Positions 8,491 to 27,004 of a stretch of 64,000 bases of DNA are shown here, in pieces. Source of the DNA: Natronobacterium haloterrestre (lineage in GTDB: Archaea > Halobacteriota > Halobacteria > Halobacteriales > Natrialbaceae); assembly GCF_900112205.1 (NCBI RefSeq), contig NZ_FOKW01000001.1:620001-684000 (forward strand), in the 5' to 3' direction. The position numbers were made by a program, and so were the translations under genes. The notes beneath the pieces were generated by a model, which was not told the origin of the DNA, searched no databases, and was given only the letters and a program-made list of their open reading frames with translations. The number at the start of each line of letters is the position of its first letter. Position 1 is the first letter of the stretch.

Positions 8491-8591
8491 CTTCGAAAAT
8501 ACAGGTCGGTTGATAAACGTCCTATCAGTTCCTGTTCGCCGAGAATTCCCGGTTGGGTTGATTGTCCCCAAAACGAGTTCGTTCGAGACGA

Positions 8592-11500: not shown

Positions 11501-11681
11501 CCGGAAGGCGGACGTGTTCGGGAAGGGGGAGACCGACATCGACAGCCCGGGGACGGGGCTGGGGCTGTACCTCGTCAGGACGCTCGTCGAGCAGTACGGC
11601 GGCGACGTCTGGGTCGAGGACAACGATCCCGAGGGGAGCGTCTTCACCGTTTCGCTCCGTCGCGCGGGTGACCGGGAATGA
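8592..11681 (+). CDS. Multi-PAS/GAF sensor histidine kinase with a receiver-like N-terminus
   Basis: Soluble sensor kinase of 1029 residues with no membrane segments. Order: receiver-like domain (about 5-125), PAS (137-255), GAF (266-423), three further PAS domains (about 426-541, 546-666, 669-790), a phosphoacceptor helix with His806 (VVRHDVRND), and a complete HATPase domain with N-box NLLVNAIVHND, DNGPGIP and GTGLGLYL. The receiver-like domain has Gly57 where the phosphorylated Asp would be expected (DCIVCGTAL), so it probably does not accept phosphate. Start ATG 8592 is preferred to the upstream TTG at 8562. It is the first gene of a co-directional group with the KaiC-like gene and a second kinase. 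Signal and cognate regulator are unknown. Confidence 0.92.
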   Translation: MPSLRVLYVDGESALEPVGRYLESETDAAEFEVRTEASVDDALATLERVDIDCIVCGTALEVDPLSVLRAVRSDDRTVPFVLFADEDGASAETVSDAFAAGVTDYVRKGNQATEEYEVLARRIEAASREESELSLGPERVEEAIDHAADAVFVTNTDGRIEYANGAFEAVTGFSASEAIGRNPRILKSGEQDESYYEQMWSAILDGQVWEEEIVNERKSGDRYFAHQTIAPIVGEDGTVEKFVAIQRDVTDRRRLEQEIERSASTLSRLHDVAFEPNRPVDEKLERLLEIGTESLAFPIGYVTRIENGTQRIVAAIGDHERIQEGATDPLEQTYCRHTLEADEPVVVTDAANDPEWEIDPAFERFGLRCYVGAKIVVEGDVYGTVCFASEEPRTPHVGQVQQSTVKALAQWVGHELERRRYECDLERYEEIIENVPVGVFRSTPGEEGAFLEVNDAMVEMFDAPSKAALLERPPAECYRNPGRRAEFSEALTEYGELRNEVIELETFEGDPFYGSLSAIERRDGEDVYFDGILQDVTERERTKAELARSRERLQVLFDQSPDAIIVHDSDGCILDVNEKQIEQTGYDRDELLSMNVGDVETGLSLPELRGIWEDLEPGSVLEVEGEHRRRDGSTYPVEIWVSCIELDDERRFLALSREITERKERERDLELAHTQLRQVIDLVPDLIFAKNRDGEYILANETVADVYGRSLEEIEGKTDAELLESAAQVEAFRADDREVIESMEPKHIPEEELTAADGRTLFIETTKIPFEVAGTGEPAVLGYARDVTELKEQRDRLDLLNQVVRHDVRNDMQVVKGRAQLLADRLSGAEADTAADADAHLDLSAAEEHLSEVLESAEEAIELTKTARDLTETMLERDDERRPVALPQVLTSRIDAIRARYSDARISLEGSVPEASVVADDMLTSVVDNLLVNAIVHNDAAEPRVTVSADVEGDRVVLRVADNGPGIPDNRKADVFGKGETDIDSPGTGLGLYLVRTLVEQYGGDVWVEDNDPEGSVFTVSLRRAGDRE

Positions 11682-11778
11682 GCGGGCGACCACCGGGGTC
11701 GACGCGAGGAGAATCGCCGACGAACCGAACTCGAAGAGGGCGCCGCGACGCGCGGCACCGATCGACTGGTTGGAATCC

Positions 11779-13272
11779 ATGACAGACAGCACCGAGAACG
11801 CGAGCAGGGAACCCGAACGGATACGCAGCGGTATCGACGGACTGGACGACGTCCTGCGGGGCGGACTGGTGACTGGACGGCTCTACCTCGTCTGTGGCCG
11901 CCCGGGGACCGGGAAGACGCTCCTGGGGATGCACTTCCTCGAGGCCGGACTCGAGCGCGGCGAGACGGTACTTTTCGTCCACGGCGAGGAGTCCCGCGAG
12001 GAGATACTCACGAACGGTTCGCGGCTCGGGATCGACATCTCCGACGCCGCGTTTCTCGACCTCGGGCCCGAGTCGGAGTTTTTCACGGAGGATCGGTCGT
12101 ACGACCTCGTCGATCCGGCCGAGGTCGACCACGACCGGTACACCCAGGACATCCACGAGGCGATCAGGGAGATCGATCCGGCGCGGGTCGTCATCGATCC
12201 CATCACCCAACTGCGATACATCGAACCCAACGAACACCAGTTCCGCAAGCGGATCCTCTCGCTCATGCGGTTTCTCAAGGAACGGGACACGACCGTCGTC
12301 ACGACGGCTACGGTCTCCGGCGACGGCGAGTACGACGTCGAGGTCCAGTCGTTGAGCGACAGCGTCATCGAACTCGAGCGTGGCGACGGCGGTCGACGGC
12401 TCCGGGTGACCAAACACCGCGGCTACGGGCAGAAGCGCGGCAGCCACGGGATGGAGATCAGGGACGGCGGAATCGACGTGTTCCCGGCGCTGGTTCCCGA
12501 GCGCCACGATCGGTCGTTCGATCCCCACCCGCTCGGCTCGGGGAACGGGGCGCTCGACGAACTCGTCGGCGGCGGCCTCGAGTCCGGTACCGTCACGTTC
12601 GTCAGCGGCCCGACGGGGGCCGGGAAGACGACCACGGCGGCGCAGTTCCTCGCACAGGCCGCGGCGGAGGGAACGAACGCCGTCCTCTATCTCTTCGAGG
12701 AAGGGGTCGACACGTTCACGCACCGGTCGGAGTCGGTGGGGCTGCCGATCACGGACCTGCGCGAGGAGGGGTCGCTCGCGGTCGAACCGATCGAACCGCT
12801 CTCGCTGTCCGCCGAGGAGTTCGCCCACATGGTCCGAGAGCGGGTCGAACGGGGGGACGCCGAGGTGGTGATGATCGACGGCATCGACGGCTACACGATG
12901 TCGCTGCAGGGCCGGACGGAGGGACTCGTACGGAAGCTACACGCGCTGACCCGCTACCTGAAAAACCGGGGCGTTACCGTGCTGGTCACGGACGAGATCC
13001 AGCAACTCGCCGGCGTGACGAACGCGACGAGCGCCAATCTCAGCTACATCGCCGACAACATCGTCTTCATCAGCTACCTCGAGGCCGACGGCGGGCTGGA
13101 GAAAGTGATCGGCGTGTTGAAGAAACGAGCGGGACCGTTCGACCGGACGCTGCGCACGTTCGAGATCACTGCGGATGGGGTCCGGATCGGCGGACCGGTG
13201 ACGAGCCACACCGGCGTTCTGCAGGGACGACCGCGAGAACGACAGACCGACGGCGGCGTAGGTGACCGATGA
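11779..13272 (+). CDS. KaiC-like double RecA-domain ATPase
   Basis: KaiC/RadA-superfamily protein of 497 residues with two tandem RecA domains. The first has Walker A GRPGTGKT (40-47) and the catalytic Glu pair in 'HGEESREE'; the second has GPTGAGKT (277-284) and 'LFEEGVDTF'. Both look competent for ATP binding and hydrolysis. Cyanobacterial KaiC is the clock protein; haloarchaeal homologues are generally thought of as signalling ATPases, so a clock role is not implied. It lies between two histidine kinases and its stop overlaps the next ATG (ATGA at 13269-13272). Start ATG 11779 is chosen; an in-frame GTG at 11669, inside the end of the previous gene, is an alternative. Confidence 0.9.
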   Translation: MTDSTENASREPERIRSGIDGLDDVLRGGLVTGRLYLVCGRPGTGKTLLGMHFLEAGLERGETVLFVHGEESREEILTNGSRLGIDISDAAFLDLGPESEFFTEDRSYDLVDPAEVDHDRYTQDIHEAIREIDPARVVIDPITQLRYIEPNEHQFRKRILSLMRFLKERDTTVVTTATVSGDGEYDVEVQSLSDSVIELERGDGGRRLRVTKHRGYGQKRGSHGMEIRDGGIDVFPALVPERHDRSFDPHPLGSGNGALDELVGGGLESGTVTFVSGPTGAGKTTTAAQFLAQAAAEGTNAVLYLFEEGVDTFTHRSESVGLPITDLREEGSLAVEPIEPLSLSAEEFAHMVRERVERGDAEVVMIDGIDGYTMSLQGRTEGLVRKLHALTRYLKNRGVTVLVTDEIQQLAGVTNATSANLSYIADNIVFISYLEADGGLEKVIGVLKKRAGPFDRTLRTFEITADGVRIGGPVTSHTGVLQGRPRERQTDGGVGDR

Positions 13273-14873
13273 GCGGCGACGCGGACCGGCCCAGCGGGAC
13301 TCCGGCGAGCGGAGACGACGGCGAGGGCAAGGGCAAGCGCGAGGGCGACGGTGACGGCGAGGGGGAAAGCGAGAACGGTACGACCGACGGATACCGACGA
13401 GTCCCGTCGACCGGCCTCGAGGACGGGTCCGAGGACACGATCCAGTTGCTCGTCGCCAACGACGGCGACCGGAGCGCCCTCCGGGAGTTGCTCGCCGACC
13501 GGTACCGGGTCGTCACCGACCGCCTCGAGGACGCGGACCTGTACCTCGTCGAGGATCGGGCGTTCCCGGAGTACCGCGAGGCGCTTCGCGAGCGGACCGA
13601 AACGGCCGACCCCACGTTCGTCCCCGTCGTCGTCGTCCGCGGACCCGACTCGAGCCGTCGCTCGTGGCCCGCGCTCGAGCAGCGGTCCGACCCGCCGGTC
13701 GTCGACGACGTCGTGGACGCGCCGATCGATCCGCCGCTTCTGTATCGACGCCTCGAGAGCCTGCTCGTCCGGCGTCGCCAGTCGATCGCGCTGGCGGACC
13801 AGGTCGCGACGCTCGAGGAGCGCGAACGCGAGCTTCGAGGGTTCAAGCGGGTCGTCGAACAGACCGGCCACTCGATCACGATCACCGACACCGACGGGGA
13901 GATCCGGTACGTCAACCCCAGTTTCGAGGAGGTAACGGGATACACGGCGTCGGAGGCGATCGGACGCAACCCTCGCATTCTCCAGTCCGGAGAGCACGAC
14001 GAGGCGTTCTACGAGGACCTCTGGGGGACGATCAGTTCGGGTGAGGTGTGGAAAGGCGAGGTCGTCAACGAGCGGAAAGACGGGACGCGGTACGTGGTCG
14101 AGCAGACGATCGCGCCGATCACCGCGAACGGCGACATCGAGGGCTACATCTCGGTCAACTCCGATATCAGCGACCGGATCCAGCGCGAGCGCGAACTCCG
14201 GCAACGAGAGCGCGAACTCGAGGTGCTTCGGCAGATCCTCACGCGCGTCCTCCGGCACAACATCCGGAACGCGCTCACCGTCGTCTCGGGGTACGCCGAG
14301 CGGATCGCGACCGACCTCGAGGAGCCCTACGCCGGGATGGGGGAGGCCATCCTCGAGACGACCGACAAGATCGAACGGACCAGCGAGAACGCCCGGGCGA
14401 TCAGCGCGATCCTCGAGGAGAGCGGCGGCGTGACCGAGCACGATCTGGCGACCGTCGTCGAGAACGCCGTCGCGACGGTCCGGGAGCGGTATCCGGCCGT
14501 CACCATCGACGTGGACGTCCCGTCGGAGTATCGGGTCCTCGCCGGGGCGCACCTGCAACACGCGGTCGACAACCTCGTCGAGAACGCGGCCCAGCACAAC
14601 GACGCCGACGAGCCGCGGATCGACATCGTCGCGGAGACGGCCGAGGACGTCCGGCTCGTCGTCGAGGACAACGGTCCCGGAATCCCGGAGCACGAACTCG
14701 AGCCACTCGACAGCGCGGAGGAGACGCCCCTCGAACACGCAAGCAGCACCGGCCTGTGGTTGATCAACTGGGTGGTCGAACTCTCGGACGGGTGCCTCGA
14801 GTTCGACGTCAGCGAGGACGGCACCCGCGTCGAGATCGAACTGCCGGCGGCGGGAACGGTCGATCCGGCGTGA
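13269..14873 (+). CDS. PAS-domain sensor histidine kinase
   Basis: Soluble kinase of 534 residues, translationally coupled to the KaiC-like gene by an ATGA overlap. It has an acidic low-complexity N-terminus of about 50 residues, a receiver-like domain (about 57-175), one PAS domain (about 190-310), a phosphoacceptor His330 in 'VLRHNIRNAL', and an HATPase domain with NLVENAAQHND and DNGPGIP. The second glycine box is the shortened STGLWL form. Its PAS domain closely resembles the first PAS of the upstream kinase (both contain 'SEAIGRNPRIL'), suggesting related ligands or a shared origin. No output regulator is encoded next door. Confidence 0.9.
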   Translation: MSGDADRPSGTPASGDDGEGKGKREGDGDGEGESENGTTDGYRRVPSTGLEDGSEDTIQLLVANDGDRSALRELLADRYRVVTDRLEDADLYLVEDRAFPEYREALRERTETADPTFVPVVVVRGPDSSRRSWPALEQRSDPPVVDDVVDAPIDPPLLYRRLESLLVRRRQSIALADQVATLEERERELRGFKRVVEQTGHSITITDTDGEIRYVNPSFEEVTGYTASEAIGRNPRILQSGEHDEAFYEDLWGTISSGEVWKGEVVNERKDGTRYVVEQTIAPITANGDIEGYISVNSDISDRIQRERELRQRERELEVLRQILTRVLRHNIRNALTVVSGYAERIATDLEEPYAGMGEAILETTDKIERTSENARAISAILEESGGVTEHDLATVVENAVATVRERYPAVTIDVDVPSEYRVLAGAHLQHAVDNLVENAAQHNDADEPRIDIVAETAEDVRLVVEDNGPGIPEHELEPLDSAEETPLEHASSTGLWLINWVVELSDGCLEFDVSEDGTRVEIELPAAGTVDPA

Positions 14874-15647: not shown

Positions 15648-18600
15648 CTACGGGGCGTCGTCCCCCTCGAGGTACTCGTCGGGCGCGCAGCCGAGCGACC
15701 GGTGGGGACAGCGCCGGCAGTGCGGTCCGGGTGACGTCTCCCGGTAGGCGGGGTCGTCGACCGACTCGAGGGTCGCCAGGACCGCAGACCACGACGGCAG
15801 GGCCTCGTCGTCGGGATCGAAGAGGTCCACGCGCGGGGCGGCTCCGGGACCCTCCTCGCCGACGTAGACGTACCCGACGGCCGCGAGCGGCTCGTCGAAC
15901 CGGTCCTCGCAGGCGCGGGCGTAGAGCACGAGCTGGACCGCCTCCTCCGGCGGGATCCGCTCGGCGGTCGTCTTGTAGTCGAGCACGGCGAGTTCCCCGT
16001 CTGGCGTCCGCCGAACGGAGTCGACGTAGCCGACCACGTCGCCGGCGACGCCGTCGACCTCCTCGAGCGAGAACGGGAGTTCGGCCGCCAGCGGCTCCCA
16101 GTCGGCGACGGGCCGGTTGTACTCGTCCGCGGCGGCCGCGAAGAAGCGGTCGACGCAGGAAAGTACTTCTTCGCGGTACTCCTCGAGGCCGCGGGCGGTG
16201 AGCTGTCGACGGGCGGCCGTCTCCCACTCCGCTTTCGTCCCGTAGTCGCGGTGGAACGCCTCCTCGGCGACGTCGTGGAAGACGGTGCCGACGATTCGGG
16301 AGTTTCCATCGTCGGCGCCATCGCCGTCTCCGTCTCCGTCTCCGTCCCCGCCCCCGTCGCCGTCGCCGTCCCCGTTTCCGTCGTTGCCCTCTCCACTCGA
16401 GACCGTTCGGTCACCCACCGCAGGATCGTCGACCGCCCGGACCACGTGGTCCAGGTAGTGTTTCCGCGCACAGGTCTCGTGCGTCCGCATCGCCGTGTAG
16501 CTGTGGGTGATCGCGACCGGAAGCTCGGTCGCGTTCGCGAGCGTCTCGACCGGGAACCGGACGGCGTCGGTCGTCAGCGTCGACAGACTCCGCTCCGCGG
16601 GGACCCGGAGGGGGTCGTCCTCGAGGTCCCCGTAACTGGCCGCGTCGGCCGCGGGCAGGAGCGTCCCCGTCCGCAGCAGTCGGCCCAGGTAGTGGACCCG
16701 TTCGATCGCTTCTCGGGTCCGCAGGGGCTCGACGTGGCGGTCCTCGTAGTCGGCGTAGTAGGTGATCGATCCGGGCGTGACGCCGCTCGAGCGGGAAAGC
16801 GCGTCGGTCCGGTCGGCGACGCTCTCGGGGTAGGTCTCGCGGACCCGCTCGAAGCTCTCGGTCAGCGACGACCAGAGGTCCATCCGCCGGCCGGCCGTCG
16901 ACCACTGGACGGCATCGGGGAGACAGGCGTCGGCGGTCGAGACGCCGAGTTCGCCGGCCTCGTCGTCGCCCTCGTAGTCGTACTCGGAGCCGAACACGAA
17001 GAGGTGGTTCGCCGCCCGCGTGAGCGCGACGTGGAGCACTCGCCACTCCTCGCCGACGCTCTCGGCGGCGACGTCGGCGAGCAGCGGGGAGTCGTCGTCC
17101 TCGAGCGCCGCGGCCAGCAGGCGCTCGCGGGCGCGCTCGGCGTAGTCCGACTCGACGCACCACTCCTCGTCCGAGAGGTAGGGGACGAGCACGGTGTCGA
17201 ACTCCAGGCCCTTCGCCTGGTGGACCGTCATCACGTCCACACAGTCGTTCGAGCGCGTGCCCCGGGTTCGGTCGCTCCCGCCCCCCTCGAGGGTCGCCTC
17301 GAGCGCGTCGAGGAACTCGGGCGAGAGCGTCCGCAGCACGGTGTCGGCGTCGTAGGCCTCGACGAACCGCTCGATCCGGTCGAACTCGGCGCGCTCGTCG
17401 CCGGTCAGGTACCACTCGAGGTTCGTGACCTCCCGGAACCGCCGCAGGAAGCCCGACAGGGGGTAGACGCGACGATATCGGTCGAGCGTCGTGAGGTGGT
17501 CGCGGGCCCGCTCGAGGCGGTCGGGATGGGCCAGTCGGTCGCGCTCGATGCGGTCGTTTTCGTCCCCGTCGTCCTCGCCGTCGCCGACCGCGAAGACCGC
17601 ATCCCGGAGCGACCGGTCCTCCCCGCGGGCGTACCGCTGCAACGTTTTCAGGTCGCCCTCCGGGACCCGGTACCGGTAGAGCAACGCCCGTCGAAGGTAG
17701 GCGTCGGCGTCCGGATCTACGAGCGCCCTGAGGTACGACAGGACCGTCCGAATCCCGGGCGACACCTCGCCGCCCGGCGACCCGGACACCTCGTAGGGGA
17801 TCCGTCTGTCCTCGAGCGCGTCGGCGACGGCCTGGGCGTGGCGGTTCGTCCGGACGACGACCGCCAGGTGCTCGAGCCGTCGCCGGGGGACGTTCTCCGC
17901 CTCGCCGTTGAGCAGCCGCGAGACGGTCGTCGCGACCTGTTCGGCCGTCGGGCGTTCGATCTCGTCGCTCTCGACCTTGACGACGTGGTCGAAGGGGGGG
18001 TCGAGGGGAGAGTTCCCGTCCTCCTCGTCGGCGTACTCGTACTCCTCGTAGTCCGCGTACTCACCCCTGGTCCGTCCGTCCTCGCGTAGCCTCTTCGAGG
18101 ACTGGTGGCCGTACTCACAGCGGTTCGCGAGGTCGAGGATCTCCTGGCGCGAGCGGAAGTTGAGCCCGAGTTCGACCGCCTCGTGGTCGTCGTAGACCTC
18201 CTCGAGGCGGTCGAGCCCCTTCCGGTCGGTGCCGCGCCAGCCGTAGATCGCCTGGTCCTTGTCGCCGATGGCGAACAGCGACGGGCGGTCCGGGCCGCGG
18301 GTCAGTTCGGTGAGCAGGGAAAACTGGGTGTCGTCGGTGTCCTGGAACTCGTCGCAGTAGACCTGGGCCCAGCGGCCGGCGATCCCGTCGGCGACGGCCT
18401 CGTCCGCGAGCAGGTCGGTCGCCGTCCGGACGAGTTCGTCGAAGTCGAGCGCCCCCCGCTCGGCGAGCGCCTCGTGGTAGTCCGCGTAGACGTCGGCGTA
18501 GTGGCGCGCGAGCCGCAGGAACTCGACGTAGTGTTTCAGCCGCCCGAACGGGCTCTGCTCGAGTCGCTCCGTGGCCTCCCGTCGGACGGCGTTGCAGAAC

Positions 18601-19502
18601 AGCGCCCGCGGGAGCTGTTTCGTCTCGGGCTCCTCGAGCGAGAGCGCCTCGATCGTCCGGGTCACGCAGTCCTGGAGGACCTCGAGATAGCGGTCGACGT
18701 CGCGGACGACCGCCTCCTCGGTGAACGCCGGCGACTCCTCGATCTTCTCGCGGCAGTACTGTATCAGTTTCCCGTAGTCGACCAGCGACTCCGTCGCCTC
18801 CTCGAGGTGGTCGGGTTCGTTGAAGTACCGGAGCGCCTCGGCGTCGAACGAGAGGTCCGCGTTCGCCCGGCGCTCGAGCCAGAGGACGAACTCGGTGCAC
18901 AACTCGAGGGTGCGGACGTCGGGCAGTCGCTCGCGGAGTTCGTCGGGGTCGACGTCCTCCTGGCTCATCTCCTGGATGAACCCGTCGACCTCGCGGGTGA
19001 GTTCGGCCGGCGAGCCGTCGCCGGTGGCGGCCGCGAAGCCGTAGTCGTTCTCCGCGAGCAGGCGGCCGACGATCCGCCGCCGCTTGCGGTCGGTGACGAC
19101 GTCGAACTCCGGATCGTAGCCGAGGTAGTAGGCGTACTCCCGGACCAGCCGGTGACAGAACGAGTGGTAGGTGTAGACGTCGATCGCCGCCGCGGCGTCG
19201 GGGTCGAGTCGCTCGGTCACCGCGTCCCGGATGTTGCCCGCGGCCTCGTTCGCGAAGGTCAACACGAGCACGTCGTCGGGGTCGACCTCGCCGCCCTCGA
19301 TGGCGCGCTCGATCCGCATGAGCATCGTGGTCGTCTTCCCGGTGCCGGCCCCCGCGTCGACGGAGGTGCAGGCGGCCGTGCTCTCGATGACCGCCGTCTG
19401 GTTGCCCCGGGGCTCGAGGTCGCCGTCGCCCACGAGCAGGTCGGCGACGTCGTCGGTCGTCTCCGGGCTCGAGCGGTCGGTCCCGTCCGTTCGCTCAGGC
19501 AT
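15648..19502 (-). CDS. AddA-like UvrD-family helicase with C-terminal Fe-S PD-(D/E)XK nuclease
   Basis: The 1284-residue SF1A helicase has all motifs: Q-motif region, Walker A GAGTGKT (51-57), Walker B CDEFQD, GDKDQAIYGWRG, NFRSR, HQAKGLEFD and HVALTRA. The C-terminus is a RecB-type nuclease with GTVFHD, 'GYVDSVRR', LDYKTT (Asp about 1175, Lys about 1177) and the following QLVLY. Four cysteines flank it (about 1010, 1262, 1265, 1272), the layout of Cas4/AddB [4Fe-4S] nucleases. An Asp/Gly repeat linker (about 1035-1062) joins the halves. The ATG overlaps the end of the preceding gene by 8 nt. Likely role: processing of double-strand DNA ends with the two upstream gene products (inference). 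Confidence 0.85.
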   Translation of the reverse strand: MPERTDGTDRSSPETTDDVADLLVGDGDLEPRGNQTAVIESTAACTSVDAGAGTGKTTTMLMRIERAIEGGEVDPDDVLVLTFANEAAGNIRDAVTERLDPDAAAAIDVYTYHSFCHRLVREYAYYLGYDPEFDVVTDRKRRRIVGRLLAENDYGFAAATGDGSPAELTREVDGFIQEMSQEDVDPDELRERLPDVRTLELCTEFVLWLERRANADLSFDAEALRYFNEPDHLEEATESLVDYGKLIQYCREKIEESPAFTEEAVVRDVDRYLEVLQDCVTRTIEALSLEEPETKQLPRALFCNAVRREATERLEQSPFGRLKHYVEFLRLARHYADVYADYHEALAERGALDFDELVRTATDLLADEAVADGIAGRWAQVYCDEFQDTDDTQFSLLTELTRGPDRPSLFAIGDKDQAIYGWRGTDRKGLDRLEEVYDDHEAVELGLNFRSRQEILDLANRCEYGHQSSKRLREDGRTRGEYADYEEYEYADEEDGNSPLDPPFDHVVKVESDEIERPTAEQVATTVSRLLNGEAENVPRRRLEHLAVVVRTNRHAQAVADALEDRRIPYEVSGSPGGEVSPGIRTVLSYLRALVDPDADAYLRRALLYRYRVPEGDLKTLQRYARGEDRSLRDAVFAVGDGEDDGDENDRIERDRLAHPDRLERARDHLTTLDRYRRVYPLSGFLRRFREVTNLEWYLTGDERAEFDRIERFVEAYDADTVLRTLSPEFLDALEATLEGGGSDRTRGTRSNDCVDVMTVHQAKGLEFDTVLVPYLSDEEWCVESDYAERARERLLAAALEDDDSPLLADVAAESVGEEWRVLHVALTRAANHLFVFGSEYDYEGDDEAGELGVSTADACLPDAVQWSTAGRRMDLWSSLTESFERVRETYPESVADRTDALSRSSGVTPGSITYYADYEDRHVEPLRTREAIERVHYLGRLLRTGTLLPAADAASYGDLEDDPLRVPAERSLSTLTTDAVRFPVETLANATELPVAITHSYTAMRTHETCARKHYLDHVVRAVDDPAVGDRTVSSGEGNDGNGDGDGDGGGDGDGDGDGDGADDGNSRIVGTVFHDVAEEAFHRDYGTKAEWETAARRQLTARGLEEYREEVLSCVDRFFAAAADEYNRPVADWEPLAAELPFSLEEVDGVAGDVVGYVDSVRRTPDGELAVLDYKTTAERIPPEEAVQLVLYARACEDRFDEPLAAVGYVYVGEEGPGAAPRVDLFDPDDEALPSWSAVLATLESVDDPAYRETSPGPHCRRCPHRSLGCAPDEYLEGDDAP
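16318..16390 (-). repeat. Coding microsatellite for an Asp/Gly linker
   Basis: 6-bp repeats (CGTCTC/CGTCCC class on the plus strand) encode an alternating Gly-Asp linker between the helicase and nuclease parts of the AddA-like protein. All units are multiples of three, so length changes keep the frame. Confidence 0.75.
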
Positions 19503-20595
19503 CGAACCCCACCTCCGTCTCGAGGTAGTCGCCACAGCAGACCCGGTACGCACAGTCCGGACACTCCTCGTCGCGGACGTCGTCCCACCGCTCGCCCGGG
19601 TCGAACGCGCCCGCCCGGATGCGGTCGACGATCGACTCGAGCCGTCCGTCGACGGTCTCGTTGCGGTGTTCGTGGGTCATCCCGAACGTGTGGTGGTCGA
19701 CGTAGACGTCGGTGAGGTCGACGACCTCGATGTCAGTCTCGACGGTCTCTCTCACCCAGTTGATCGACGCGTTCGACCGGTCGGCAAGCGGAATCTGGAC
19801 GTACCGGCAGGTCCGCTCGGTCAGCCCGAGCCGGTCCCGATAGTTCCGGAGGCCGTCGAGGACCACGGCCGTCTCGAGCAGGGCGGCGGCCGGCCCGGGA
19901 TCGAACGCGTCGGCTTCGGGGTCGAAGTGGTCGACGAACCGGTCCTCGACGCGCTCCCAGTCCGAGCGGTACCGCAGGTAGCCGAGCGGCCACAGCGTCG
20001 GGACGAACCGCACGGCGACCAGCGACGAGCCGTCGGCGTAGAGGTAGTCGACGGGGGCCTCGAGGGTGACGGGATCGAGATCGCTGTCGACTTCGCTTTC
20101 ACTCGCCCGTGATCCGCCATCCGCAGCCCCGCTCGCAGGGGCCACCGTCGTCGAGAGTTCGAGGTCGGGACCGACGAGCGGCCGGTCCGCTTCCCGTTCG
20201 TCCTCGAGCCGACCGATGCCGGCCGCGTGCTCGGCGCCGACGCGGTCGACGTACGCCTCGAGCGTCGCCTCGAGGACGCGGCGCTCGTGACGTCGCTGGG
20301 CCCGTGAGTGGAAGTGTTCGTCGTGGTCGTCCCACAGCGTCGCCAGCCGTCGCGTGGCGCGTTCGGCGAGCGTTTCGGGGTCCGGATCGTCGCCGGCCGC
20401 ATCGACGAGCGCGTCACAGAGCGCCCGCCGCAGGAGCGCGACGCGTTCGACCGTGGCCTCGTCCTCTCCGTCGGTCTCTCCGCCCTCGAGGCCGTCGACG
20501 TGGGCGAACTCGTACCGTCGCGGACACTGGAGGTAGGTCCGAAGACCCTCGACGGAGATCGAGTCGGGGGGCGTTTCGGCGTCCCGGTCAGTCAC
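19495..20595 (-). CDS. Fe-S PD-(D/E)XK-like protein with a degenerate nuclease site
   Basis: A 366-residue protein with one Cys near the start (Cys24 in YLQCPRRYEF) and a C-terminal cluster C345-x2-C348-x5-C354, the four-cysteine layout of Cas4 and AddB iron-sulfur nucleases. In the expected active site the D-x-K pattern seen in the downstream protein (LAVLDYKTT) is replaced by LVAVRFVPT, so catalysis is probably lost. The start is the GTG at 20595, which overlaps the preceding stop by 8 nt (20588-20595), mirrored by an 8-nt overlap with the next gene (19495-19502). I read it as the detached Fe-S domain of an AddB-like subunit; this is inference from motifs and order. Confidence 0.7.
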   Translation of the reverse strand: MTDRDAETPPDSISVEGLRTYLQCPRRYEFAHVDGLEGGETDGEDEATVERVALLRRALCDALVDAAGDDPDPETLAERATRRLATLWDDHDEHFHSRAQRRHERRVLEATLEAYVDRVGAEHAAGIGRLEDEREADRPLVGPDLELSTTVAPASGAADGGSRASESEVDSDLDPVTLEAPVDYLYADGSSLVAVRFVPTLWPLGYLRYRSDWERVEDRFVDHFDPEADAFDPGPAAALLETAVVLDGLRNYRDRLGLTERTCRYVQIPLADRSNASINWVRETVETDIEVVDLTDVYVDHHTFGMTHEHRNETVDGRLESIVDRIRAGAFDPGERWDDVRDEECPDCAYRVCCGDYLETEVGFDA

Positions 20596-22855
20596 GCCGC
20601 ACCACCTCCCCCGCCGCGAACTCGAACTGCGAGCGGACCGCCTCGGCGAGTTCGTCGTCGACGTCACCCTCATCGAGGACGAGCGCGATCTCCTCGAACA
20701 GCTCCTCGGTCGCCGCGAGGTCCGCCTCGCCGCCGGTGCTGGCCTCCCGGAGCACCCGCTCGAGTTCCCCGCGGGGCTGGTCGAGCAGGGCCTCGACGGC
20801 GTTGCTCTCGCCGTAGATGGCCGCGTTCGATTCGGTGGCGACGTCCTCGAGCGCCAGCCCGGGGGTCGACTCGATCAGTTTCAGGTACCTGGATTCGTCG
20901 TAGCTGCGGCGCAGACCGCCGGAGCCCCGCTCGTAGGAACAACAGTAGAGACGACGCGTCGCGGCCCGGGCGCCGAGCGCGAGCCGTCTTCGGGCCCGCT
21001 GGGCGTGGTAGGCGTCGAAGGGGTCGCCGACCGCGTCCGGTCCGTCGACCGGCGCGAACGTCTCCGCGACGGTCCCGGCGGACGGGCCGGTGACGGCCGG
21101 GTACGCCGACGACTCGCGGAGCCAGGTCGAGGGAAACAGTTGCGTGAGGAACTGCTCGCCGGGGTAGGTGTCGTCGACGAGGTCGAGCAGGAAGACGACC
21201 GCCCGCGGCTCGTACTTGAGGTCCTCGACGGCACAGACCGTGACGCCGCCGGTCGGCGGCTGCGTTTCGACCGAATGGACGTACGGCGCGTCGTACTGGA
21301 TCGTCCGCCGGAGCATCCGGCGCAGCCCGTCCCAGTCCGGCGCGACGAGGTCCGTCTCCTCGACGAAGTCGGCGATCTCGAGGACGCGGCGAATCCCCTC
21401 GTACTGCTCGCGGGCGTCGACCCACTCCTCGTCGCCCGCGATCCGACCCTTGAGGTCCGTCCGGCGGATCCACCGCCGGAGCGAGCGGGCGACGCTCGCG
21501 TCCCCACAGGCCTCGAGCAGGTCCGGCGAGAACCCCTCGACCCGCGCTCGCAGGCGCTCGAGGGCGGCCTCGCGGTCGTACTCGGTACGGGAACGGGGGC
21601 CGTCGTCGGCCTCGCTCGCGCCCTCGGACGCGAGGTCGGCGTCCCGCGCCCGCTCGCACTGGAGCGTAACGAACGCGTAGAGTTCGTTGACCGCCGGATC
21701 CTCCGCGAGGGAGGGCGTGCCGATCGTCGCGGTCGGGATTCCGGCCTCCCGAAGGCGTCGCCTGGTCTCCGGCACGCGCTCGATCGACGGGACGGCGACG
21801 GCGAAGGCGTCGTAGCTCCAGTCGTGGCGGTCCTCGAGCGCCCCGATCTCCGTGGCGACGGCCCGGACCTGTTCGCGGGGCGTGCGGGCCCGAATCCGCC
21901 GGGCGCGACCGATCGGCTCGTCTCCGGCCTCGAGGTCCGGCGGCTCGCCGGTCGCGAGAAAGCGGACGAGTTCGGCGTGGGGCGGTCGGTCGGCGGCACC
22001 GTCGGGGTGGGAGTCGATCCGCTCGAGGGCGAGCCCCGGTTCGTCGTCGACAACGTCCGCGACTCGGCCCGGTTCGACGCGGGTCCGCTCGACGCTGGCG
22101 TGGCCTTCCCCGAGACAGACCAGGTCGGCGTCGGCCGTCAGCGCGCCGAGGTAGCGCCGGTCGAGGCGGCGGAACTCCTCGAACTCGACGGCGAGCACGG
22201 CGTCGAACGAGTCGGTCACGCGAGAGCGGAGGCCGTCGGCGTCGTCCTCGAGCAGCGAGAGCGCCCGCGGGATCACGTCCGCCCGTTCGACGTAGCCGCG
22301 GTCCTCGAGTTCGTCGTGGAACCGGTCGTTCATCGCGTAGAGGAAGGCGAGGCAGTCGTCGGTCCGGCTGCGTGGAGCCTCTCCGTCCGCACTCTCCGCT
22401 TCCGGAACGTCCTCGAGTCCGACCCGCTGCCGGGTTGCCGCGAGCAGCAACTGCCCGACGTCGCGGGCGAAACTCTCCCGCCGGGCGGCCCGCCGGAGGT
22501 AGTCGGGCACGTCCCTGCTCGCGCCCTCGATCACGAGCGAGACGAGTTCGATACGCTCCTCGTACTCGAGTCGGTCGAGGGTCGGGTCGTACTCCTCTAG
22601 GACCTTCGAGGCGTGTTCCGGCACCGACTCGACGCGGGGCGAACTGGGCCCGCCGTCGTCGGAGTGAACCGCGGCGAGGCGGCGGCGAACCGACTCCTGC
22701 CCCGAGGGGTGGCGTTTCAGGACCAGGACGTTTCGGGGGCCGTGCTCCTCGGCGAGGGCCGCGTACTCGCGGGCGACGGCCTCGAGGGGGTCGCTCCCGG
22801 TGGCGGGGACCGGCCGGAGCCTGCAGACGCCCTCGAGGGGAAACTCGGTCGGCAT
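20588..22855 (-). CDS. AddB/RecC-like inactive helicase subunit
   Basis: A 755-residue protein with a degenerate UvrD fold. The Walker B region is AVEFEEFRRLD instead of DEFQD, the GDxDQ motif is replaced by GEGHAS, and the motif V region reads 'VEDLKYEPRAVVFLLDLVDD' where helicases have HxxKGLEFD. No GxGKT loop is present near the N-terminus ('VLVLKRHPSGQES'). This is how RecC and AddB differ from their active partners. It is the first gene of a three-gene operon with 8-nt overlaps throughout. Probable role: non-motor partner for DNA-end binding in a helicase-nuclease complex (inference). A TATA box lies at 22885-22892. Confidence 0.65.
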   Translation of the reverse strand: MPTEFPLEGVCRLRPVPATGSDPLEAVAREYAALAEEHGPRNVLVLKRHPSGQESVRRRLAAVHSDDGGPSSPRVESVPEHASKVLEEYDPTLDRLEYEERIELVSLVIEGASRDVPDYLRRAARRESFARDVGQLLLAATRQRVGLEDVPEAESADGEAPRSRTDDCLAFLYAMNDRFHDELEDRGYVERADVIPRALSLLEDDADGLRSRVTDSFDAVLAVEFEEFRRLDRRYLGALTADADLVCLGEGHASVERTRVEPGRVADVVDDEPGLALERIDSHPDGAADRPPHAELVRFLATGEPPDLEAGDEPIGRARRIRARTPREQVRAVATEIGALEDRHDWSYDAFAVAVPSIERVPETRRRLREAGIPTATIGTPSLAEDPAVNELYAFVTLQCERARDADLASEGASEADDGPRSRTEYDREAALERLRARVEGFSPDLLEACGDASVARSLRRWIRRTDLKGRIAGDEEWVDAREQYEGIRRVLEIADFVEETDLVAPDWDGLRRMLRRTIQYDAPYVHSVETQPPTGGVTVCAVEDLKYEPRAVVFLLDLVDDTYPGEQFLTQLFPSTWLRESSAYPAVTGPSAGTVAETFAPVDGPDAVGDPFDAYHAQRARRRLALGARAATRRLYCCSYERGSGGLRRSYDESRYLKLIESTPGLALEDVATESNAAIYGESNAVEALLDQPRGELERVLREASTGGEADLAATEELFEEIALVLDEGDVDDELAEAVRSQFEFAAGEVVRRD

Positions 22856-22884: not shown

Positions 22885-22892
22885 TATTTAAA
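22885..22892 (-). promoter_or_regulatory. TATA box of the AddAB-like operon
   Basis: TTTAAATA on the minus strand, about 33 nt upstream of the ATG at 22855. A small palindrome CCCTGTAGGG (22866-22875) lies between it and the start codon, near where transcription should begin, and could be an operator. Confidence 0.5.
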
Positions 22893-22909: not shown

Positions 22910-23707
22910 TCACCGGTAGGCGAGTTTGAGTTCGATCTCGTTGACCGCACCCAACAGGAGGTCCGGGATCTCCTCCCGGAAGTAGGAGCCGGTGAGCCGC
23001 TTTGCCGGTCCCGCGACGGAGACGGCCCCGTAGACGTCGCCCTCGAGGACGATCGGTGCCCCGACGGCGCGGATCCGCTCGTGGGACTCCCGGTCGTTGA
23101 ACGCGACGCCCTCCTCCTGGACCGCGGCAAGTTCGTCCTCGAGGTCGGCCGGCGACGTGATCGTCCGATCGGAGACGCCAGCGAGGCCGCCCTCGAGGAG
23201 TTCCGCGCGCCGTTCCTCGGGGAGTTCCGCAAGGATGGCCTTGCCCGCCGAAATCGTGTGCAGCGGCTTCCCTCTGCCGACCCAGGAGTCCGTGGGCACG
23301 CCCCGTTCGCCCACGCGCCGGTCGACGTAGACCCCGCGGCCGTTCTCCTCGGCCACGAGGTTGACAGTCTCGCCCGTCTCCGCGACGAGTTGCTCGAGGA
23401 CGGGATCCGCAGCCTCGAGCAGGTCGCGGTAGTGCCGTTTCGCCCGCTCGCCCGTGTCCATGAATTTGAGGCCGAGCCGGTAGCCGTCCTCCTCGGCGAC
23501 GACGTAGCCGTGATCGCGCAGCGTCCGGAGGTGGTCCGAAGCCGTGCTGTTGGCGACGTCGACGGCGTCGGCGATCTCGGTCAGGCGCGCCCGCTCGCGG
23601 TCGGCGAGGGCGTCGACGATGGCGAAGGTGGTCTCGGTTGCCTTGATGCCCGATCCGGCGGTCGAGCCGGACCCTGCTCCCTCATCCGACCCGCTGTTCG
23701 GTCCCAT
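22910..23707 (-). CDS. IclR-family transcriptional regulator
   Basis: The 265-residue protein has an N-terminal winged helix-turn-helix (about 20-90; 'LTEIADAVDVANSTASDHLR') and a C-terminal IclR effector domain with 'GKAILAELPEERR' and 'GDVYGAVSVAGP'. IclR proteins bind DNA as dimers or tetramers and sense small organic acids or aromatics. It precedes no gene in its own direction within 50 bp, but the MFS transporter and ThDP enzyme lie directly upstream on the same strand, making them likely targets (inference). A palindromic GGGATATCCC about 25-35 nt upstream may be both TATA and self-operator. Confidence 0.9.
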   Translation of the reverse strand: MGPNSGSDEGAGSGSTAGSGIKATETTFAIVDALADRERARLTEIADAVDVANSTASDHLRTLRDHGYVVAEEDGYRLGLKFMDTGERAKRHYRDLLEAADPVLEQLVAETGETVNLVAEENGRGVYVDRRVGERGVPTDSWVGRGKPLHTISAGKAILAELPEERRAELLEGGLAGVSDRTITSPADLEDELAAVQEEGVAFNDRESHERIRAVGAPIVLEGDVYGAVSVAGPAKRLTGSYFREEIPDLLLGAVNEIELKLAYR

Positions 23708-23791
23708 ACCGGTGGAGACACCGGATTCGGGATATCCCTTTTGGAAGCCGGCCCGATCGAACGAAAGGCGGCGAAACGGTCGGCGGCCGGG

Positions 23792-25081
23792 TCAGGGTCG
23801 TTCGCCGTACCGGTACAGCACGACCGCCAGCACGGCGCCGACGGCCGGGAACGCCGCGAGTCCGGCGAACGTCCCCGCGATCGACGTGATCTCGAGGAGG
23901 TAGCCGGTGATCGCCGCGCCGGCGGCGCCGATGCCGAAGGTCCCGAGGTAGGTGTAGCCGTAGGAGAGCCCCCGGTCACCCGGCGGGCTGTACTCGGCGA
24001 TCGTCGCCTGATACATCGGCTGCAGGGCAAAGAGGAGGAACCCGAGCAGCACGCTGACGACGAGCAGCGAGGCCAGCCCGGCTTCGGCCGCGGGGACGAA
24101 GAGGAGGGCCACGACGGCCAGCGATCCGAAGATCGCCACGAGGCCGGTCTCCGTGGGGATCCGATCGGTCAGCTTCCCGCCGACGAACTGGCCGGCCATC
24201 CCGACCATCAGCAGGCCGGCGTAGAGGTACGACGCGGGATCGAACTCCTCGGCCATCGGACTGTCCGGATCGAACAGCTGGAGCTGATCGACGACGTCGG
24301 GCATGAAGCCGCCCAGGACGTCCGGCAGGAAGGTCAGCGTGCCCCGGTAGAACAGCCCGTTCATCATCACGACGAAGATCGCGATCGTGAAGCCGAAAGT
24401 AAACAGCGTGCGGGTGTCCTCGATGAAACCGGACAGCGAGGTCGGCGCGTCGTCGGCGTCTGGATCCGCGTCGGCATCGGCACCGCCGTCGGCACGGACG
24501 GCCGCGGTCTCGTCGAAACTCGCGGTGACCGCGTACGCGATCGCGATCACCGCCGGCAGGACGAGCAGGCCCGTGACGAGCCGCCAGTCGAAGAAAAGCA
24601 GGAGGACGGCGGTGATCAGCGGCCCGAACGCGATGCCGAAGTTGCCGGCCATCCCGTGATAGGCGAAGCCGGTGCCGCGCTGTTCGACGCCGGTCGAGAT
24701 CAGCGAGAGGCCCGCGGGGTGGTAGATGCTGGCGGCGACGCCCCAGAGACAGAGCGCGATCGTGATCGTCACGATTCCCTGTGCGGCACCCAAAAGGAGG
24801 AAGGAGCCGCCCATACCGGCGAGACAGACCAGGACGAGTTCTCGAGAGCCGAACTTGTCGGCGAGGACACCTGCAGGCAAGGCCCCGAGGCCGAACAGCC
24901 CGTATCCGATCGCGACCGCGGTCCCGAGTACCGCTGTCGTCACGTCGAACTCGGTCAGCCAGATCACCATCAGGATCGGAATCGAGAGCTCGTAGGTGTG
25001 GACGACGGCGTGGGAGATCATCACGAATCCCGTGATGGATCTGTCGTTGTCGTTCATCCCGCCCGACTGCTCCGTGCTCAT
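23792..25081 (-). CDS. Major facilitator superfamily transporter
   Basis: A 429-residue membrane protein with about twelve hydrophobic helices and a central hydrophilic loop rich in Asp/Ala (about 195-225). The loop after helix 2 carries 'GVLADKFGSRELV', the MFS GxLaDrfGrr signature. The general look is of bacterial drug or organic-acid permeases; the substrate is not decidable. It lies between an IclR regulator and a ThDP-dependent decarboxylase-like enzyme on the same strand, suggesting uptake or export of a carboxylate used by that enzyme (inference). TATA-like CGTTATGCG lies about 28 nt upstream. Confidence 0.88.
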   Translation of the reverse strand: MSTEQSGGMNDNDRSITGFVMISHAVVHTYELSIPILMVIWLTEFDVTTAVLGTAVAIGYGLFGLGALPAGVLADKFGSRELVLVCLAGMGGSFLLLGAAQGIVTITIALCLWGVAASIYHPAGLSLISTGVEQRGTGFAYHGMAGNFGIAFGPLITAVLLLFFDWRLVTGLLVLPAVIAIAYAVTASFDETAAVRADGGADADADPDADDAPTSLSGFIEDTRTLFTFGFTIAIFVVMMNGLFYRGTLTFLPDVLGGFMPDVVDQLQLFDPDSPMAEEFDPASYLYAGLLMVGMAGQFVGGKLTDRIPTETGLVAIFGSLAVVALLFVPAAEAGLASLLVVSVLLGFLLFALQPMYQATIAEYSPPGDRGLSYGYTYLGTFGIGAAGAAITGYLLEITSIAGTFAGLAAFPAVGAVLAVVLYRYGERP

Positions 25082-25210
25082 GCGTGTCGGACAGACGGAG
25101 ACCCTCCCGCATAACGATTGCTAACTCCAGACGGCCGAAACCGGCAGAATTGGGCGGTATCGTCGGGATCGTTCGGATCGACGAGAGGTCGTGTCGGCGT
25201 TGCCGAGCCG

Positions 25211-26872
25211 TCACTCGTCCGCGTTCATCCAGACGCTCGCCTGGGGCTCGAGGGGATCCGTCGGCACCTCCACCAGCGTCGGCCCGTCGCGCTCGAGGGC
25301 CTCGCCGACCGTCGCGGCGATCCGGTCCGGTGTCTCCGCCCGCATCGTCTCGAGACCCATTCCGTCGGCGACGGCGACGAAGTCGATCGGGACGTCCGTC
25401 CAGCCGTACTCGCTTTCGCCCATCCGGTAGCTGCGCTCGGCCTCCTCGCTGATGATCGCGTAGTCGCTGTTGTTGAGGACGACCACGGTGACGTCTAACT
25501 CCTCCTCGGCGATCGTGTGCAGTTCGTGGACGCACATCATCAGCCCGCCGTCGCCCGTGAGCGCGACGACGTCCCCGTCGGGGTTCGCGATGGCCGCCCC
25601 GATCGCCGACGGGACGCCGGTCCCCATCGTCGCCCACGATCCGGGGTTGACGTAGTCGCGGGGGTCGTAGGCCTCGAACGCGACCAGCGTCCACAGGCGG
25701 AAGCCGCCCGCGTCGGCCGTCACGACGGCGTCCCGCGGGATCGTCTCGCGGAGCGCTTCGAGCGCGCTGACGGTGGTAAGCGGCGGTTCGTCGCCCTCGC
25801 GCAGGGCCGCGATCCGGTCTCGGGTTCCCGTTCGTGCCTGCCGGGCGCGCTCGAGCCCTGCCTCGTTCGCGATCTCGCGGTCGGAGTCGGCGAGTTCGTC
25901 CTCGAGCGCCGCCAGCGTCTTCGCGGCGTCGGCGACGATCCCGACCGTCGGCTCGTAGCCGGTGCCGACGTCGGACGCCTCGAGCGTGACGTGGACGAGG
26001 TCCTCGGGGATCTCGATCGACCAGTTCTTGGTCGTCACCGCGTCGAAGTCGGTACCGACGCCCAGGGCCGCGTCCGCCTCGGCGATGCACTCCTTGACTG
26101 CCGTGCCCGTCCCGCCACAGAGCGTGCCCGCCGCAAGGTCGTGGTCGTCGGGAAAGGTCCCTTTGCCCTTGTAAGTCGTGATGACGGGGGCCTCGAGGCG
26201 TTCCGCGACGGCCCGGAGTTCGTCCGCGGCCTCGGCCGACCGCACCCCGCCGCCGGCGACGATAATCGGTGCGGCCGCGTCGGCGAGGAGGTCGGCCGCC
26301 GCGGCGAGGTCGTCCGCGGGGACGTCCCCGGGCGCGTTCGCGGGTTCCTCGGTCTCACCGGAGGCGGCCAGCGGCACGTCCATCGGAAGGAAGTTCTTCG
26401 GGATGCCGACCCGGACCGGCCCCTTCGGTGGCGTGCGAGCGACTTCGATCGCTCGCTCGAGTTCCGCGACCGTGCTGTGGGGCGTCTCGACCGTGACGTT
26501 CTCCTTGACGACGTTGTCGTAGGTGTCGGGCGGCGTCTCGTGGATGCCGTCGCCGCCCCGGATCTCGGGTTCGGTCTCGACGGCGATATGCAGCATCGGC
26601 GTGCAGTCGTTTTTCGCGTTCTTCAGGCCGTTCATCGCGTTCATGTCACCGGGGCCGGGGATGACGACCGTCGCAGCCATCTCGCCGCTCGTCTCGGCGT
26701 AACCCCACGCCTGGTGAGAGACCGCGGTCTCGTGGCGGGCCATCACGAACTCGATGTCGTCGCGTTCGCCGATGGACTCGTTCAACGGGAGGGTCTGCTT
26801 TCCGGGGATGCCGAACAGCGTGTCGATGCCGTTGTCCACCAGGCAGTCGATGACGGCCTCGTTTACCTGCAT
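25211..26872 (-). CDS. ThDP-dependent enzyme, acetolactate synthase/decarboxylase-like
   Basis: A 553-residue protein with the three-domain acetolactate synthase fold. The N-terminal pyrimidine-binding domain has the conserved Glu in 'ARHETAVSHQAWGYA', the central domain follows, and the C-terminal pyrophosphate domain has the GDG...NN motif ('LTGDGGLMMC' to 'VVLNNSDY'). Such enzymes decarboxylate 2-oxo acids or join them; acetolactate synthase itself is unlikely to be certain because ilvN is absent. Start ATG 26872 is preferred over TTG 26881. Genomic company of a transporter and an IclR regulator suggests catabolism of a 2-oxo acid or related compound. Confidence 0.85.
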   Translation of the reverse strand: MQVNEAVIDCLVDNGIDTLFGIPGKQTLPLNESIGERDDIEFVMARHETAVSHQAWGYAETSGEMAATVVIPGPGDMNAMNGLKNAKNDCTPMLHIAVETEPEIRGGDGIHETPPDTYDNVVKENVTVETPHSTVAELERAIEVARTPPKGPVRVGIPKNFLPMDVPLAASGETEEPANAPGDVPADDLAAAADLLADAAAPIIVAGGGVRSAEAADELRAVAERLEAPVITTYKGKGTFPDDHDLAAGTLCGGTGTAVKECIAEADAALGVGTDFDAVTTKNWSIEIPEDLVHVTLEASDVGTGYEPTVGIVADAAKTLAALEDELADSDREIANEAGLERARQARTGTRDRIAALREGDEPPLTTVSALEALRETIPRDAVVTADAGGFRLWTLVAFEAYDPRDYVNPGSWATMGTGVPSAIGAAIANPDGDVVALTGDGGLMMCVHELHTIAEEELDVTVVVLNNSDYAIISEEAERSYRMGESEYGWTDVPIDFVAVADGMGLETMRAETPDRIAATVGEALERDGPTLVEVPTDPLEPQASVWMNADE

Positions 26873-27004
26873 ACCGGCCAATATTGCGGGGACAGCGTAA
26901 AGCTTGAGGATACCGTTCCCCCCACGGGGAAAAGAGAAGGGACGGAGCGACGACCGACGGGCCCCGGGGACACCCGAATTCGGTCTTTAGCTTCCGCTTC
27001 GGCA

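Follow-up and report, generated by a model that had tools for sequence, protein, structure and literature searches.

A haloarchaeal helicase-nuclease operon with an AddB-type subunit divided into two proteins

The bacterial AddAB and RecBCD machines are textbook knowledge. The Fe-S nuclease fold of AddAB is required for binding DNA ends, and to our knowledge AddB is known solely as the partner of AddA. The dead helicase fold of AddAB scans the strand (PMC4824097). RecC combines an inactive helicase fold with an inactivated nuclease fold that encloses one strand as a hoop; it has been suggested that RecBCD went through an AddAB-like stage, prior to inactivation of the RecC nuclease (PMC1185551). 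AdnAB has been reported from Actinobacteria only (PMC6452273), and UvrD-Cas4 fusions, described on their own or in various contexts with no pair of AddB-like partners, have been proposed as defence parts (PMC5704561). The Argonaute-PLD (APAP) pair of haloarchaea is a tested defence system, near which only “a helicase-encoding gene” is mentioned (PMC11442185). Among the opened papers that pair haloarchaea with AddAB, none described an archaeal AddAB, and the literature searched, with subscription papers largely outside it, held no description of a split AddB or of an AddB-type subunit combining a dead nuclease with retained cysteines.

The operon described here was found in Natronobacterium haloterrestre (assembly GCF_900112205.1), within a window of 64,000 nt that corresponds to positions 620,001-684,000 of the forward strand of NZ_FOKW01000001.1. 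Public records name its three genes “DNA helicase UvrD”, “PD-(D/E)XK nuclease family protein” and “ATP-dependent DNA helicase”. The genes are henceforth referred to, in operon order, as B1, B2 and A, and together as the trio. The features are as follows:

20588..22855, minus strand: B1, 755 aa, helicase-like half of AddB, lacking Walker A (profile, predicted model, motif check)
19495..20595, minus strand: B2, 366 aa, GTG start, Fe-S nuclease-like C-terminal half of AddB, active site lost
15648..19502, minus strand: A, 1284 aa, ATG start, UvrD-type SF1A motor with C-terminal PD-(D/E)XK nuclease and four-Cys set
20588..20595, minus strand: 8-nt overlap of B1 stop and B2 start, GTGACTGA (read from sequence)
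19495..19502, minus strand: 8-nt overlap of B2 stop and A start, ATGCCTGA (read from sequence)
16992..19403, minus strand: A residues 34-837, SF1A helicase motor, UvrD-helicase and UvrD_C (Pfam)
15696..16304, minus strand: A residues 1067-1269, PD-(D/E)XK nuclease domain with catalytic residues (Pfam, alignment)
19534..19563, minus strand: B2 C345-x2-C348-x5-C354, three C-terminal putative Fe-S cysteines, the first of the four being C24 (alignment)
22885..22892, minus strand: TATA-like TTTAAATA, ~30 nt 5' of the B1 start (read directly)

The TATA-like TTTAAATA is a possible archaeal promoter for the operon. An earlier, sequence-only reading of this DNA had reported three genes overlapping by 8 nt at each junction; its coordinates were right, and both minus-strand overlaps are exactly 8 nt. 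The frame offsets at both junctions are compatible with an overlap of 8 nt or of 4 nt (ATGA) in 47 related loci, so translational coupling is kept and not due to chance.

Subunit A contains UvrD-helicase (8e-52), UvrD_C (3e-24) and PDDEXK_1 (1.5e-20) domains by Pfam. In an alignment of 19 family members, Walker A, DEFQD, GDxDQ, NFRS and the motif V and VI residues are invariant, the nuclease is intact (H1076, D1161, D1175-Y-K1177 and Q1190), and cysteines 1011, 1262, 1265 and 1272 are invariant. A long Gly-Asp repeat (GDGDGD...) located directly before the nuclease core (window 16300-16400, minus strand) differs in length among relatives. When compared with solved structures, the A family profile scored PcrA/UvrD (277 bits) above AdnB (212), AddA (190) and RecB (127), and A fell below the NCBIfam AddA equivalog cut-offs (127 of 708 bits). 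A tree of 48 trio A proteins, 17 canonical haloarchaeal AddA from unsplit operons and two UvrD-Cas4 fusions, built by a quick method with a midpoint root and without bacterial AddA, placed the trio A on one branch and the AddA on another with support of 100 each; the grouping of A with the fusions (L101 and L102) depends on the midpoint rooting. The canonical haloarchaeal AddA are also devoid of the C-terminal cysteine set that trio A carries. Based on the profile ranking, the separate branch and the cysteine set absent from canonical AddA, A has an AddA-like architecture and yet, as far as tested, is not AddA by descent. That the closest relative of A by profile and tree is other than AddA counts against an AddAB-type reading of the operon. 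GajB models match the UvrD core that A shares, and no GajA-like gene of Gabija was found among the annotated neighbours of the trio in the window.

As a single sequence, B1 yielded nothing useful from Pfam (no match), NCBIfam, PADLOC or PDB. Its family profile returned AddB of B. subtilis as the top match among all PDB chains (E 3.4e-6), and hhalign aligned it with unsplit haloarchaeal AddB (probability 98%, E 1.5e-13). The predicted structure (mean pLDDT 77, pTM 0.75) has an SF1A helicase fold and matched AddB 4cej_B with a Z of 23.8 over 625 residues, model residues 8-743 corresponding to AddB 2-766 with the C-terminal helices included. Plain UvrD structures rank higher by Z (27.3 vs 23.8), which counts against the AddB identity of B1; the UvrD alignment covers fewer residues than that of AddB and little beyond residue 675. 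A motif check showed Walker A to be absent from B1 in 48 of 48 loci. The equivalents of the AddB residues linked to Chi control in B. subtilis were not conserved in an HMM alignment of 20 rows (at the E129 equivalent, 9 of 20 rows have E and the B1 of the window has A; the F68 equivalent is mostly L), and the Chi sequence itself varies from species to species.

B2 was matched by Pfam PDDEXK_1 (E 2e-9). Its family profile gave chance matches only against PDB sequences, and structure comparison was required. The predicted structure (pLDDT 89, pTM 0.88) best matched AddB 4ceh_B (Z 15.4, 287 residues), model residues 3-363 corresponding to AddB 776-1138; the AdnA nuclease was tied with AddB (Z 15.0), Cas4-type proteins ranked lower, and the match to RecC was weak (Z 6.0). 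By hhalign, B2 aligned with unsplit haloarchaeal AddB at its C-terminal nuclease end (97.5%, E 7.7e-12). In the predicted models, B1 and B2 tile AddB as 2-766 and 776-1138 with a ten-residue gap. A frameshift or an assembly error as the cause of the split was ruled out by the genes' own starts and the phase kept across ~50 loci. Cysteines 24, 345, 348 and 354 of B2 are conserved in 51 rows, with Y at 345 as the single exception, and their spacing is that of unsplit haloarchaeal AddB (CxxCx5C).

In 30 loci, including that of the window (the window clade), the catalytic H, DxK, Q and Y of B2 are replaced, and nearly all of these loci have R, K or Q at the first D of DxK. The DxK pair is intact in 17 loci, where H, Q and Y are nearly always present too (the sister clade). 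When B2 state was mapped onto the A tree, whose alignment has no columns in common with B2, a single change was needed; since unsplit AddB retain the nuclease motifs, one loss of B2 catalysis is the simplest reading. The B2 of the window clade is under purifying selection, with a dN/dS of 0.25-0.34 in three comparisons.

These results bear out the sequence-only reading of A as a UvrD-type protein with all helicase motifs and a C-terminal PD-(D/E)XK nuclease (Pfam domains, invariant motifs and four invariant cysteines), of B1 as a helicase-like protein with lost motifs (AddB-type fold, Walker A in 0 of 48 loci), and of B2 as a short Fe-S protein (four conserved AddB-type cysteines and the PDDEXK_1 match, the cluster itself being putative). 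The similarity of the 755-residue protein to AddB or UvrD, on which that reading had staked its idea beforehand, was found by profile, structure and hhalign. Its division of AddB into a dead helicase half (B1) and a nuclease-like half (B2) is supported by the PDB profile, both models, hhalign and conservation of the trio, while its “dead nuclease” is true of the window clade only, the motifs of the sister clade being intact. Its AddAB-like operon stands as far as the SF1A motor-nuclease and the AddB-type B1 and B2 are concerned. The HMM and structure searches against AddA, AddB, RecC, AdnAB and Cas4 that it had proposed identified B1 and B2 as AddB but showed that A is not a canonical AddA and lies nearer PcrA/UvrD, AdnB and UvrD-Cas4.

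B1 was detected in 107 of 292 Halobacteria genomes, comprising 65 of the 75 sampled in Natrialbaceae, the family of the window, and 42 of 217 elsewhere (counted from the listing). Its relatives occur on 16 plasmids, and no B1 match was found in phage records. Outside Halobacteria (247 genomes of the phylum), the two weak B1 matches, G381 and G464, were UvrD-Cas4 fusions of 1018 and 1046 aa and not the trio. The survey across haloarchaea, in which all trio loci were located via B1, showed the trio to be conserved, as the earlier reading required: it is complete in every locus with enough flank, as separate and never fused genes in ~50 haloarchaeal loci. In one plasmid trio (L116, G061:C2:240000-256000), A seems broken, reduced to an open frame of 540 aa next to a B1 and a B2 that look intact. 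The order B1-B2-A corresponds to addB-addA, and the distance matrices of A, B1 and B2 agree with an r of 0.94-0.99.

Other end-processing systems are encoded in the same genome. Mre11-like and Rad50-like genes, adjacent and in that order (L164), were identified by an AAA_23 search and judged by sequence start, size and order; the Rad50 zinc-hook model was uninformative, being negative even for Haloferax volcanii. NurA is present in this genome and in 288 of 292 genomes, which rules out the trio as a NurA replacement. Two unsplit addB-addA operons lie on other contigs, G000:C17 (L070:6490-13351) and G000:C26 (L069:4883-12045), and unsplit AddB relatives occur in up to 63 of 292 Halobacteria, a count in which a few weak matches are probably spurious. 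Also encoded is a 971-aa fusion of a Dna2/Cas4-like nuclease with an AAA_11/AAA_12 (SF1B-type) helicase (L071:6123-9035). Given the Mre11/Rad50-like pair, NurA and the two addB-addA operons, the trio supplements, rather than replaces, the known end-processing systems. The contrast drawn earlier, that archaea use Mre11-Rad50 and HerA-NurA instead of AddAB, was too strong for a genome that has the mre11-rad50-like pair, nurA and both addB-addA operons. The need for a repair role is not obvious, because the genome has these other end-processing enzymes.

The operon resembles AddAB of B. subtilis (3u44, 4cej) in its motor-nuclease chain, its AddB with an inactive helicase fold and an Fe-S nuclease fold, and the addB-addA order. 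It differs in that AddB, one polypeptide there, is two proteins in the trio, that B2 is catalytically dead by sequence in the window clade, and that A has its own Fe-S cysteines and is nearer UvrD/AdnB than AddA. The unsplit haloarchaeal AddB-AddA operons (L069 and L070) share the gene order and a homologous B subunit, whereas their AddB is a single ~1075-aa chain whose nuclease motifs are intact, and their AddA lacks the four-Cys set and occupies the separate branch. B1 and B2 of the window clade are in the same catalytic state as RecC, with both folds predicted to be inactive; RecC, however, is a single chain, B2 retains four cysteines, and the structural match between B2 and RecC is the weak one given above. 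No RecD-like 5'-3' SF1B helicase gene was found in the operon or among the annotated neighbours of the window trio. The likeness to mycobacterial AdnAB lies in the A profile, which scores AdnB above AddA, and in the match of the B2 model to the AdnA nuclease, but AdnA and AdnB each combine motor and nuclease in a single chain, and in the trio only A does so. The UvrD-Cas4 fusions L101 and L102 have the domain order of A (UvrD motor and Fe-S PD-(D/E)XK) as well as its four-Cys set.

The operon probably encodes a three-subunit AddAB/AdnAB-type helicase-nuclease which, in Natrialbaceae, performs housekeeping trimming of broken chromosomal ends for recombination. Homology, motif loss and retention, operon conservation and purifying selection are directly observed, and from them we infer a complex of A, B1 and B2, occupied Fe-S sites and processing of DNA ends. 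By analogy with AddAB (PMC4824097) and RecC (PMC1185551), A would unwind and cut the DNA that B1 and B2 guide. A would be the sole 3'-5' motor and, in the window clade, the sole nuclease. B1 and B2 would correspond to an AddB severed in the linker that joins the helicase-like part to the nuclease-like one, and would jointly form a non-catalytic arm, in which the dead helicase fold of B1 may provide a passage for the unwound strand and the Fe-S fold of B2 may grip the DNA end or channel a strand, as the inactivated nuclease domain of RecC does. The Natrialbaceae trio would most likely unwind and trim broken chromosomal DNA ends ahead of recombination.

The sequence-only reading had proposed an end-resection or an anti-phage machine, and both roles are putative. 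The window clade is chromosomal in Natrialbaceae and has stable neighbours, a synteny that favours the repair role. Most Natrialbaceae loci have a small CBS-domain-like protein upstream and many have a NUDIX gene downstream. The neighbours of the window trio are NUDIX, IclR, MFS, TPP enzyme, kinase and KaiC-like genes, and no defence gene was found adjacent to it among the annotated neighbours. An IclR regulator, an MFS carrier and a TPP-dependent enzyme (window 22910-26881) separate the trio from the CBS-domain protein. The same set is found in L039; it looks like a later insertion, as the full set is missing from most other Natrialbaceae loci. Just past the NUDIX gene, on the other strand, a double KaiC-like ATPase is flanked by PAS/GAF histidine kinases (window 8562-14870).

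The sister clade, with its intact B2, is frequently located on plasmids and in defence islands. Genes for a prokaryotic Argonaute of ~890 aa and for a PLD protein lie 5' of B1 in L062, L063 and L117; the Argonaute and PLD matches by Pfam and PADLOC are those of L063, and L062 and L117 were assigned by gene size, gene order and Argonaute matches. These loci (L063:965-12244, L062 and L117) probably represent a five-gene operon of Argonaute, PLD nuclease, B1, B2 with active motifs and A, which would connect the published Argonaute-PLD defence system to an AddAB-like machine. The 292 genomes contain ten Argonaute homologues with an identity of 86% or more, and every one belongs to such a locus: nine share a contig with the trio at a constant distance, and for one the trio is on a neighbouring contig number. 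Other trio loci lie near DISARM drmA/drmB, BREX brxC/pglZ and methyltransferase/DEAD-helicase genes. In part of the sister clade, the trio directly follows the Argonaute and PLD genes of an APAP-like pair, whereas the window clade has no Argonaute neighbour. These neighbours favour a defence role of the sister clade, and this link counts against the repair reading. They also support the alternative that the window-clade trio is itself an anti-virus or anti-plasmid machine against foreign linear DNA, its fixed chromosomal place reflecting domesticated constant defence, as do the proposal of UvrD-Cas4 fusions as defence parts (PMC5704561) and the plasmid-borne B1 relatives. We regard this alternative as unlikely though a serious competitor: the window locus has metabolic and signalling neighbours and no adjacent defence gene, its synteny is conserved across Natrialbaceae, and its evolution is slow with congruent distances.

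Every catalytic motif is present in A, and stand-alone UvrD-Cas4 fusions exist (PMC5704561; L101 and L102), so that A might act alone as a UvrD-Cas4 helicase-nuclease, with B1 and B2 as separate regulators or parts of another complex. This is improbable given that B1, B2 and A occur together in every locus (all loci having been found via B1), that their genes overlap and their distances co-vary, and that B1 and B2 tile AddB, an AddA partner. It is least probable that B2, dead by sequence only, cleaves DNA via a changed active site: D183 is invariant in 51 of 51 rows, but all of the 30-locus clade has other residues in place of H, DxK, Q and Y.

As a tentative proposal, archaea may have independently reached a RecC-like state, in which AddB was split and the nuclease part, with its Fe-S cysteines retained, became catalytically inactive a single time, during a shift from mobile Argonaute-linked defence to chromosomal repair or the reverse. 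In that case, the sister-clade trio would be a built-in helicase-nuclease providing Argonaute guides or opening Argonaute targets. Inactivation of an AddB-type nuclease, of the kind known from RecC, is now seen in archaea, where active and dead sisters coexist and only the Fe-S cysteines are retained in the latter; with live and dead B2 sisters that both keep the cysteines, what the Fe-S fold does beyond cleavage can be put to the test. A concrete identity is gained for the helicase gene mentioned near Argonaute-PLD, and the trio would add an overlooked, predicted end-processing enzyme to the haloarchaeal set.
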